Below are positions 22,100 through 26,432 of a stretch of 34,153 nt of DNA, piece after piece. How positions within the stretch are numbered: position 1 is the stretch's first letter; the number at the start of each line of letters is the position of its first letter. Below the pieces are notes generated by a model. That model did not search any database. It had not been told where the DNA came from and saw nothing but the letters and a program-made list of their open reading frames with translations. The translations under genes and the position numbers were made by a program. Source of the DNA: Deltaproteobacteria bacterium (GTDB taxonomy: Bacteria > Desulfobacterota > GWC2-55-46 > DRQE01); contig JAGLUZ010000028.1 in assembly GCA_023134165.1 (NCBI GenBank), positions 1 to 34,153 on the forward strand, given 5' to 3'.

Positions 22100-22837
22100 A
22101 TGGATATTCGTGTATTTAAAAACCCTGATGATTTGGCCAAAGGTGCGGCCAAGTTATTCTTTGAGAGACTCTTGTCTAGCAGTGGAAAATGTTTCTCCGT
22201 TGCTTTAGCTGGCGGGAATACCCCGCTAAAACTTTATCAAGAAATCTCAAAGACGGCTTCTTCCGTAGAGGATAATTTACCTTTTACTCAGTGGGAGAAG
22301 GTGCACTTTTTTTTTGGAGACGAAAGGTGCGTTAGTCCAAGTAGTTCTGAGAGTAATTATAAATTTGCTAGAGACGAATTAACCTCAAAGATTAGAATAA
22401 CTGAGAATCAGGTTCACAGGATTAAGGGCGAGCTAGGTGCTGTGGATGGTGCTAAGGAATACACGAGAGAACTTAGTGGCTTTTTTGCTCCAAAGAAAGT
22501 TAGCTTTGATATTGTTTTTTTAGGGCTTGGCACTGATGGTCATACTTTGTCTGTCTTTCCAGGCTTTGATTCTAATAACTACGACGAGAGTGAACTTGTT
22601 GTTAGTACCACCTCGAAATCACATAAATACGATAGGATTACGCTTACCCCAGAGGTTGTAAATAACTCAAATCTTACTATTTTTTTGGTCTCAGGTGAGA
22701 GTAAGGCTACAGCCCTAAAGGAAGCACTTGAAGGTGATTTAAAGACCAAGGATTTTCCTGCAAAATTAATACACCCCAAAAATAACAATCTAATATGGAT
22801 GGTCGATAAAGAAGCCGCGTCTTTGTTAAGCCTTTAA
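22100..22837 (+). CDS. pgl: 6-phosphogluconolactonase
   Basis: VALAGGNTPLKLYQ, VHFFFGDERCVSPSSSESNYKFARDEL, FLGLGTDGHTLSVFPG. Confidence 0.94.
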   Translation: MDIRVFKNPDDLAKGAAKLFFERLLSSSGKCFSVALAGGNTPLKLYQEISKTASSVEDNLPFTQWEKVHFFFGDERCVSPSSSESNYKFARDELTSKIRITENQVHRIKGELGAVDGAKEYTRELSGFFAPKKVSFDIVFLGLGTDGHTLSVFPGFDSNNYDESELVVSTTSKSHKYDRITLTPEVVNNSNLTIFLVSGESKATALKEALEGDLKTKDFPAKLIHPKNNNLIWMVDKEAASLLSL

Positions 22838-23047
22838 TTTGGTAGTTTTCCTGCTGTTTTAAAAGTTTAGTATTATTATTTGGATAAGACAAGGGTGAGG
22901 GCAAGGTGATTTTTTTAGTGGGTTAGATTGCTATTTACCCGACACGCTATGCTGTCCCTACTTCTAAAAGAAAGGAAATGATTTGCGTAGAAAGTTTTTT
23001 TATTTGAAGTGTATGGCAGGAAGGGAAATAGAAGAAAATTAAAAAAA

Positions 23048-23077
23048 GGTAAGGACGGCTATTTAGCCGCCCCTACC
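23048..23077 (-). terminator. Rho-independent terminator of the cytochrome operon (- strand)
   Basis: - strand GGTAGGGGCGGC-taaata-GCCGTCCTTACC-TTTTTTT: 12-bp stem with two G-U pairs plus T-tract. Confidence 0.85.
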
Positions 23078-23409
23078 TGTGTATGGCATTTAGAGCATTG
23101 ATACATTGGAAAAGCAACGGTGCTATCATGACAAGCTCCGCAGTGTTCTCCGTCCATATTTTTTTTCATGGACATATCATTTGCTCCTCGTTTTTCGATG
23201 AAGATATCTGGATGACACTCAGCACACTTAATTGTATTCTCGTGTGTTGTGTGAGAAAAGATTACTGGACCTACCCCAGCTTTTTTCATACTCTCAATTT
23301 TGTTGTCAAAGGTCATCTCTCCGAGCCCGGCCGCTGCAGCTGGCTTTGGACTTATGGCTAGAATCATGAAGACCGCAATTATCAAAGATGGCAATAATAA
23401 TCTTTTCAC
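23059..23409 (-). CDS. c7-type triheme cytochrome (exported)
   Basis: GTG start at 23409 gives signal peptide VKRLLLPSLIIAVFMILAISPKPAAAA; three CxxCH motifs CAECH, CGACH, CSKCH. Confidence 0.88.
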   Translation of the reverse strand: MKRLLLPSLIIAVFMILAISPKPAAAAGLGEMTFDNKIESMKKAGVGPVIFSHTTHENTIKCAECHPDIFIEKRGANDMSMKKNMDGEHCGACHDSTVAFPMYQCSKCHTQVGAAK

Positions 23410-23416
23410 GTTTTTT

Positions 23417-24031
23417 TTACCTCTTTGCTTTCTTTGGTATGGTGTGACACCTGTTGCAATCAGCAAGTGGGAAGGCAACTTTTCCGTGACATCTACCACA
23501 CCATTTGCCCTCGGCTATCTCAACCATACTTATTGGGTTTGCACCTGCGCCCATCTCAAAGATGGCAGGGTGGCAGTTCTCGCAACTTAACCAGTAAGTG
23601 TGAATTTGATGAGGATACTTTACGTCTTTAACATAATCGCCCTTTGAGTGGATTACAACATCAACATCAAGGGGTGGTAATTCGTCTTCGTCTTCGTCTA
23701 GGGAATGTAGTGGTTCAATTGAACCATCGTTTACAAGCTTTGCCCAGTCAACCAAGCCGTAGCGATCCTTTGGAAGGCCTTCGGATTGAAGTGCCTGAGG
23801 ATGCCAGCCCTGACCTGCCTTAAATGCTTCACTAACTGGTTTTGATGAGCTACCTGTGCCAGCCAACTTCCCTCTTGAGTCAAGATATAGGGAGCTTTTT
23901 GGATCACTTGGATCCAAGGTTGGCTTTGCACCTGCGGCCTGAGCTTCTTTGATCTGCCATGTAGTAGTAAAAGCTACAATGGCCGTAACGCAGAAGAGGA
24001 AAATAAGATATTTGTAAGTCGTGGGTTTCAT
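23417..24031 (-). CDS. c7-type triheme cytochrome with long N-terminal extension (exported/membrane-anchored)
   Basis: N-terminal hydrophobic segment; CENCH, CGRCH, CNRCH. Shares IFxxGxGAN...M...G.WCGRCH...VAFP with its neighbours. Confidence 0.88.
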   Translation of the reverse strand: MKPTTYKYLIFLFCVTAIVAFTTTWQIKEAQAAGAKPTLDPSDPKSSLYLDSRGKLAGTGSSSKPVSEAFKAGQGWHPQALQSEGLPKDRYGLVDWAKLVNDGSIEPLHSLDEDEDELPPLDVDVVIHSKGDYVKDVKYPHQIHTYWLSCENCHPAIFEMGAGANPISMVEIAEGKWCGRCHGKVAFPLADCNRCHTIPKKAKR

Positions 24032-24068
24032 TTTTGTTGCTCCTCCTTGATTAGGGTAGTGTAGCTAA

Positions 24069-24410
24069 TTAGTTACCTTGATGGCTATGACATCTGTCGC
24101 AGTATAGGGCTTCCCATGCAACGAGACCGTCATGGCAAGTACCACAAAATTCTCCGTCCATTATGAGCCCCATATTGATGTCATTTGCGCCTTTTTTCAT
24201 GATAAAAATATTTTCGTGACATACTTTACATTTAAAACGAATACGGTGAAACCAGTGAGGGAAGACAACCGCAGGGACGCCGGCTTTTTCCATACTGTCC
24301 ATCTTGCTGTCTAAAACGATATCTCCATACTCAGCAACTGCTGGAGTTGGCAATAAAAAAGCCAAGGAGAAAACCGTCAGGAGGACAGCCGCTAAACCAA
24401 TCTTAATCAT
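24069..24410 (-). CDS. c7-type triheme cytochrome (exported)
   Basis: ATG 24410 with GGAGG upstream; signal peptide MIKIGLAAVLLTVFSLAFLLPTPAVA; CKVCH, CGTCH, CDRCH. Confidence 0.9.
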   Translation of the reverse strand: MIKIGLAAVLLTVFSLAFLLPTPAVAEYGDIVLDSKMDSMEKAGVPAVVFPHWFHRIRFKCKVCHENIFIMKKGANDINMGLIMDGEFCGTCHDGLVAWEALYCDRCHSHQGN

Positions 24411-24476
24411 TATTTTTTCCTCCACTCTTGCTTTTTTTGAGTTTATCTTAAAAAAAATTAATCTAAACACAGGCTT

Positions 24477-24507
24477 ATTATAATCAGGAAAAGGGGCTAT
24501 TTGTCAA
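24477..24507 (-). promoter_or_regulatory. Candidate promoter for the cytochrome operon
   Basis: - strand TTGACA (24502-24507) and TATAAT (24477-24482), both perfect hexamers but with a 19-nt spacer. Confidence 0.5.
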
Positions 24508-24632: not shown

Positions 24633-26432
24633 TTGAAAGATAAGGAAAAAAGTAAAAGAAGTTATTACTGTGGTCAGATTACCAGCACTCAAATCGGAGA
24701 GGTCGTTACTGTAAAGGGGTGGGTACAACGCAGACGCGACCACGGGGGGTTAATCTTTGTTGACCTAAGAGACCGCACAGGAATTGTTCAGCTTGTCTTT
24801 AATCCCGAAGAGAATAAGGATATTCACAGTGAGGCTCACAGCCTCAGGAGTGAATTTGTATTAAGTATTAGGGGGGAGGTTCTTGCCAGACCAAAGGAGA
24901 CAGAGAACCCAGACCTAAAGACTGGTATGGTCGAGGTTAAGGTCTCAGAGCTCGAAATCTTAAATCGTTCAGAGGTGCCTCCGTTCTTAATTGAAGATGA
25001 TACAGATGCTGGTGAGGATATTCGCCTAAAGCATAGGTACTTGGATCTTAGACGTCCAAAGCTTCTCGCTAATTTTGTACTTAGGCACAAGGTGAGCATG
25101 GCCGCAAGGGAGTATTTTTCCTCTGAAGGTTTTCTTGAGGTAGAGACTCCTATGCTTACAAAGAGCACGCCCGAGGGTGCACGCGATTATCTTGTGCCTT
25201 CTAGGCTAAATCCTGCGCATTTTTATGCACTCCCTCAGTCGCCTCAAATATTTAAGCAAATACTGATGGTCTCTGGCTTTGATAAATACTTTCAAATCGT
25301 AAAATGTTTTCGTGATGAAGACCTTCGAGCAGACAGGCAACCAGAGTTTACTCAGATTGATGCAGAGATGAGTTTTGTTGATGCCGACGATGTTATGGAG
25401 TGCATGGAAGGTCTCATTAAAAATATATTTAAAAAAGCCCTTGATACAGAGGTGGAGAATTTTCCAAGGATTACTTACGCCGAGGCAATGAGGAGATATG
25501 GCCTTGATGCCCCGGACACTCGGTTTGGCCTAGAGTTAAAGGACTTAACCAGTATTGTTGCGGACTCAGGTTTTAAGGTCTTTGCTGATATCGCAACGAA
25601 AGGCGGAAAGATTGCCGCTATAAATGCAAAAGGGTGTGCGACTTACTCACGTAAAGACTTGGACGACTTAACGGCTCTGGCTGGAACCTACGGTGGTAAG
25701 GGGCTTGCTTGGGTTAAGCTAAACGAAGAAAAAGACGGCGACGGTGGGTGGCAGTCCCCGATTGCAAAGTTTTTGAGTGATAAAGAAAAAGCAGATATTG
25801 CCTCTAAACTTGACGCTACCGTTGGAGACCTTCTTCTTTTCTCTGCTGATACTACGAGTGTGGTTAATACTGTACTTGGTAGAGTTCGCTTGGAGCTTGG
25901 TAAACGACTGGATCTTATTCCAAAAGAAGGGTTTAACTTTGTATGGGTTACAGATTTTCCGCTCCTTGAGTACGACGCTGAGGCGCGTCGCCATATTGCA
26001 ATTCATCATCCCTTTACTGCCCCACTTGATGAGGATATGGATAAACTTGACTCAGCCCCAAGTGAGGTTCGCTCCAAGGCCTACGACCTTGTCCTAAACG
26101 GCGTAGAGATTGGCGGCGGATCAATTAGGATACACACAAAAGAGCTTCAAGCAAAACTCTTTGAAAAACTTGGCATAAGTGATGAGGAGGCTAGCGAGCG
26201 TTTTGGGTTTTTACTTGAAGCCCTCTCTTACGGGACGCCCCCTCACGGCGGTGTGGCCTTTGGCCTTGATAGGATTGTTGCCATCATGACGGGGTCAGAA
26301 TCTATTCGCGACGTCATAGCGTTTCCAAAGACACAGAAGGCTTACTGTCCAATGAGCGAGGCTCCTTCTGTGGTTGATAAAAAACAGATGGATGAGCTTT
26401 TTTTAAGAACCATGAAGAAGAGTAAGGAGTAG
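24633..26432 (+). CDS. aspS: Aspartate-tRNA ligase
   Basis: [40 protein letters not shown]-like [61 protein letters not shown] start. Confidence 0.97.

Follow-up and report, generated by a model that had tools for sequence, protein, structure and literature searches.

Which role can be attributed to three small exported multiheme cytochromes that are encoded side by side and are not adjoined by any redox enzyme? This question is raised by a locus within the window, i.e. the complete analysed stretch of 34,153 nucleotides from a Deltaproteobacteria bacterium, in which three consecutive genes on the minus strand, termed A, B and C, each code for one exported triheme c7 domain. The features of the locus are the following:

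Gene A, 24069-24410, minus strand: exported triheme c7 cytochrome of 113 aa, UetD-like
Gene B, 23417-24031, minus strand: exported triheme c7 cytochrome of 204 aa, UetE/UetG-like, with a conserved N-terminal module at about residues 84-126
Gene C, 23059-23409, minus strand: exported triheme c7 cytochrome of 116 aa with a GTG start
pgl, 22100-22837, plus strand: flanks the set beyond C
aspS, 24633-26432, plus strand: flanks the set on the side of A
Terminator-like hairpin, 23047-23078, minus strand: at the end of gene C, 14 pairs followed by six T, from a consensus scan
Promoter-like site, 24480-24507, minus strand: upstream of A, TTGACA followed by GATTAT, or by TATAAT at a longer spacing, from a consensus scan

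Organisation of the triheme gene set

The arrangement agrees with an earlier note on this DNA, which had described three consecutive minus-strand genes with three CxxCH motifs each. Exactly three such motifs and an N-terminal signal-like segment are directly visible in the sequences of A, B and C, which supports the predicted total of nine c-hemes. The leader block reported to be shared by A and C was found in both of them (GDIVLDSK..SMEKAGV / GEMTFDNK..SMKKAGV). C begins 7 bases past B. The region contains four terminator-like sites versus a mean of 1.9 in shuffled sequences, and the hairpin at C is by far the longest of them. The promoter-like site upstream of A includes a perfect TTGACA and constitutes weak evidence, such sites being as numerous in the shuffled sequences as in the region. 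Localization of the flanking genes confirmed the described position between pgl and aspS; with these two as neighbours in the window, no redox enzyme adjoins the set, and neither a porin nor an oxidase nor a multiheme conduit is found beside it.

Family assignment and predicted heme ligands

The proposed affiliation with the c7-type triheme family was corroborated by HMM searches, in which all three proteins passed both models applied. A, B and C score 63.4, 68.3 and 70.6 bits, respectively, against the c(7)-type cytochrome triheme domain TIGR04257 (curated cut-off 40 bits), with three heme motifs per domain, and 46.7-51.7 bits against PF14522 (cut-off 24.8 bits; A reaches 51.7 bits), values which are far beyond chance. 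A literature search for TIGR04257 by name yielded no paper. Judged from their family, A, B and C are close to certainly exported c7 electron carriers, and their signal-like leaders suggest a periplasmic location.

The best solved relative of C is GSU1996 (pdb-code: 3OV0; E 2.4e-35), the dodecaheme "nanowire" cytochrome of Geobacter sulfurreducens. C shares with it the c7 domain type and a methionine conserved at the place of its axial ligand; however, GSU1996 consists of four domains in one chain, whereas A, B and C are three separate one-domain proteins, with B carrying an extra N-terminal module. The residues of GSU1996-type domains are conserved, and the alignments of the A, B and C orthologues revealed five invariant histidines and one invariant methionine at matching positions. 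The methionine aligns with Met209 and Met287 of GSU1996, which are axial ligands according to NMR (PMC10138318). Because of the five conserved histidines and the alignment of the single methionine with the axial methionines of GSU1996, A, B and C should each coordinate two of their hemes by bis-His and one by His-Met ligation, as predicted from the alignment. The AlphaFold models are of low confidence (mean pLDDT of 47.9 for B and 61.6 for C) and too weak to be used.

The Geobacter proteins PpcA-E resemble A, B and C as exported c7 trihemes of ca. 10 kDa which occur several per genome and serve as periplasmic carriers. Periplasmic triheme proteins of the PpcA type are, however, all bis-His (PMC10138318), whereas one His-Met heme per domain is predicted for A, B and C, and PpcA-E also differ in that the A, B and C types stand in one fixed cassette. 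The six conserved histidines and the clear PpcA similarity that characterize the PpcA family were not found in A, B and C, which contain five histidines and one methionine at these positions. Geobacter cytochrome c7 (pdb-code: 3h33) was matched only weakly (E 0.03).

Conservation of the A-B-C cassette

All 39 genomes searched, the own one and those of 38 relatives from its family or order, contain domains of the TIGR04257 type. In each of the 20 opened loci of same-order relatives, A, B and C follow each other in the same order on one strand; aspS adjoins A in 16 of these loci, and in 17 of them pgl or glk is located on the far side of C. One relative (G022, L055) contains the set at another location, without aspS and without pgl or glk, and A-B-C is accompanied by unrelated neighbours in a genome of the same class (G208) and in one of another class (G081). 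Since the set persists where the neighbours differ, A-B-C is evidently maintained as a unit in its own right. The notion of a self-contained unit is thus supported by the gene order in the relatives; within the order the genes were found neither unlinked nor always embedded in a known reductase complex.

Among 297 sampled genomes of the phylum, all nine members of the order (own genome included) and only four other genomes contain A orthologues, which score at least 179 bits; everything else stays at or below 115 bits. In two gammaproteobacterial MAGs (L039, L040), C follows a gene in which A and B are fused, and A and B are also present there as separate genes. Searching plasmids with A gave no match. 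The closest named record to the cassette is "Deltaproteobacteria bacterium CSMAG_1753" (L038), which belongs to the same family and represents the same contig as G004. A, B and C constitute three distinct types in fixed order and orientation throughout an uncultured order, and outliers occur in genomes of other classes and in two of the Gammaproteobacteria. This pattern is opposite to that of the periplasmic Ppc-type trihemes of Geobacter, which have been described as difficult to assign as orthologues (PMC12977616), and it makes A, B and C traceable markers. The cassette also offers a compact set for testing how single-domain trihemes split the work of crossing the periplasm.

Relationship to the Uet cluster

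On the basis of sequence comparison, the closest described system to A-B-C is Uet of "Ca. Tenderia electrophaga" and some Gallionella, which is composed of the tetraheme protein UetA, the PPIase UetB, the porin UetC, the triheme proteins UetD, UetE and UetG, the NHL proteins UetHI and the undecaheme protein UetJ (PMC10734462). A TPR gene is positioned between the triheme genes, and on a cathode the expression of all three triheme genes ranks among the highest in Tenderia (PMC5371394). The Uet arrangement is present in the gammaproteobacterial genomes G569, G534, G456 and G532. In G569 and others, the order tetraheme, PPIase, 613-aa ORF, D, E, F, G, H, NHL and undecaheme matches the published cluster; in G569 the PPIase and NHL proteins were confirmed by Pfam and the porin (the 613-aa ORF) was assigned by position only.

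Uet and the window have in common three exported single-domain triheme c7 proteins encoded in one cluster. The domain of A is 58% identical to UetD and that of B 55-58% identical to UetE/UetG, and B shares the N-terminal module of the latter two. No counterpart of C was detected in the five Uet genomes searched. Uet combines a single A-type triheme and two of the B type, with a TPR gene in between, whereas the window contains one UetD-like protein (A), one UetE/UetG-like protein (B) and, with C, a protein of another type. Moreover, the operon of the Uet trihemes also encodes porin, PPIase, NHL and undecaheme proteins, whereas porin, PPIase, TPR, NHL and undecaheme genes adjoin the cassette neither in the window nor in the loci of the 20 relatives. 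B-like proteins, NHL propellers and multiheme proteins do exist in the genome of the window and in its relatives, but elsewhere in the genome. The reading of A-B-C as a stand-alone relay accordingly holds with respect to the absence of an adjacent partner, but it overlooked that the nearest relatives, UetD, UetE and UetG, belong to a porin-multiheme conduit operon. A, B and C belong to a known domain family and differ from Uet in the third member and in standing alone. This shows that the trihemes of a Uet-like pathway can occur without its porin-conduit part.

Candidate partners encoded elsewhere

The earlier note had found no partner next to the cassette, which is correct, but had missed the separate multiheme/NHL loci of the own genome as possible partners. 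Three further TIGR04257 domains are present in this genome outside the cassette. Two of them belong to a double-domain protein (contig C157 of the own genome, G000; L036) in the vicinity of NHL/OmpA and six-heme proteins. The third belongs to a B-like triheme lipoprotein (G000:C52, L037:3-2212) which is encoded behind an NHL propeller and a paired-CxxCH multiheme protein, the latter being cut by the contig end (the contig is truncated at 4.7 kb, and the genome is 84% complete). The complete versions of this locus in relatives (L062, L063, L065, L073) additionally contain a PPIase as well as 26-heme and 15-heme proteins. In G006 (L062:2826-8978), for example, genes for a PPIase and an NHL propeller are combined with those for the B-like triheme lipoprotein, a lipoprotein with 26 hemes and a protein with 15 hemes. 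Such loci likely represent an electron conduit that differs from the Uet genes as published.

Uet-like loci occur in further members of the order (L068:2771-7995, L071:7814-13077 and L075:6696-12178) and encode two tetraheme proteins, one undecaheme protein and a hexaheme A-B fusion, with a PQQ-type propeller nearby. In G209 (L081:8631-15780), genes for a tetraheme protein, an A-like triheme protein, a nonaheme protein built from three c7 domains and an undecaheme protein stand in one run together with two long non-heme ORFs; this is a fused-domain variant of a Uet-like cluster.

Homologues of bc-type cytochrome b and of NapC/CymA are absent from most genomes of the family, and an NrfD-type protein is present in seven of nine genomes. 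That of the own genome resembles DsrP and is located beside a DsrO-like protein and a tetraheme cytochrome; the locus (L106, G000:C9) consists of a DsrO/DsrP-like Fe-S and NrfD-type membrane pair followed by the tetraheme cytochrome. This NrfD/DsrOP-like complex with its tetraheme subunit is one candidate for the quinone-side partner. In one relative only (G006, L045:7460-8632), a b-type cytochrome with one added CxxCH motif is encoded just upstream of A-B-C, which might possibly act as quinone-side partner there.

Functional implications

Based on homology to the Uet trihemes and on co-presence with the multiheme loci, we favour, as a reasonably probable function, that A, B and C are stand-alone periplasmic carriers which serve multiheme conduits encoded elsewhere in the genome and thereby participate in extracellular electron transfer. 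In this scenario, which is modelled on the role that UetD, UetE and UetG are thought to play in "Ca. Tenderia electrophaga", the three proteins would be produced from a single gene unit and would connect quinone-linked complexes of the inner membrane, from which they accept electrons or to which they donate them, with one or several multiheme conduits of the outer membrane. We infer the partners, the direction of flow and the operation of all three proteins in one chain, and A, B and C may jointly form a nine-heme relay or complex.

Alternatively, A-B-C might constitute a general periplasmic electron pool which feeds soluble or inner-membrane reductases, such as an NO reductase of the NorB/NorC type, and is not dedicated to extracellular transfer. 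The own genome encodes a subunit of the heme-copper oxidase family (443 aa) with a small cytochrome c subunit next to it; inspected by eye, the pair resembles NorB/NorC and would need a periplasmic electron donor. A 136-aa fragment of the oxidase family is encoded in G000:C105. The cassette is, in addition, unlinked from any conduit, and the periplasmic triheme carriers of Geobacter are reported to lack specificity in the title of a work cited in PMC12977616. This possibility nevertheless appears rather unlikely to us, as the closest relatives by sequence and gene set reside in porin-conduit operons and the oxidase-family genes vary across the family, with one genome devoid of them, whereas A-B-C is constant.

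In a more specific version of the carrier scenario, the three proteins would assemble one-to-one and build a defined bridge of nine hemes in the periplasm, to which C, absent from Uet, would contribute as dedicated docking partner; within one uncultured order, this bridge would serve several different conduits of the outer membrane. We consider this arrangement unlikely and put it forward as speculation.

A function mainly as periplasmic electron store, which buffers the cell when acceptors run out, would be in line with nine hemes in three small proteins and with the domain type and ligand pattern of GSU1996, described as a capacitor (PMC10138318). It is judged improbable, given that three distinct and separately conserved types point to specific contacts over mere capacity; storage would, besides, be compatible with the favoured relay function.

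Origin of the three types and the N-terminal module of B

The domains of A, B and C in the window are 42-48% identical to each other, while the identities to their orthologues in the order amount to 64-73% for A, 48-66% for B and 42-68% for C. In a tree of 117 domains (65 columns), C forms one clade (support 98/82), the group of A also includes UetD, GSU1996 and, from fused proteins, their N-terminal halves (97/93), and UetE and UetG are sisters outside B (99/78); many forks of this tree are left open, and the B domains are not recovered as a single clade. From these sequence relationships, A, B and C are old paralogues. A recent tandem triplication into redundant copies with no division of labour, as three adjacent genes of one family with a common scaffold might suggest, is very unlikely and was rejected, each domain being nearer to its orthologue across the order than to its window neighbours and the tree contradicting it with the clade of C and the grouping of A with UetD.

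The extension of B had been regarded as unrelated, which did not hold. Its block LPKDxYGLxDWAK..I.P..SLD is a conserved module common to many homologues, and the alignment indicates that EGLPKDRYGLVDWAKLV...I.P..SLDE is kept in the B orthologues. A profile of residues 84-126 of B, a region free of heme residues, ranked fused A-B proteins, B-like lipoproteins, UetG and also some double-domain proteins above background; UetE was found more weakly, still above background. The background consisted of 654 unrelated ORFs and shuffled copies, and all true matches lie above both. As judged from this profile, the extension is a module typical of B-type trihemes; an unrelated insertion was thereby rejected. 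A lipobox is absent from the window copy of B and present in some of its orthologues.

The second heme motif of C is CX4CH (e.g. CGSPNCH) in most relatives (e.g. L042, L045-L060) and CxxCH in the window and in three family members (L041, L043, L044). The unusual heme-attachment motif of C thus changes within one orthologue group.
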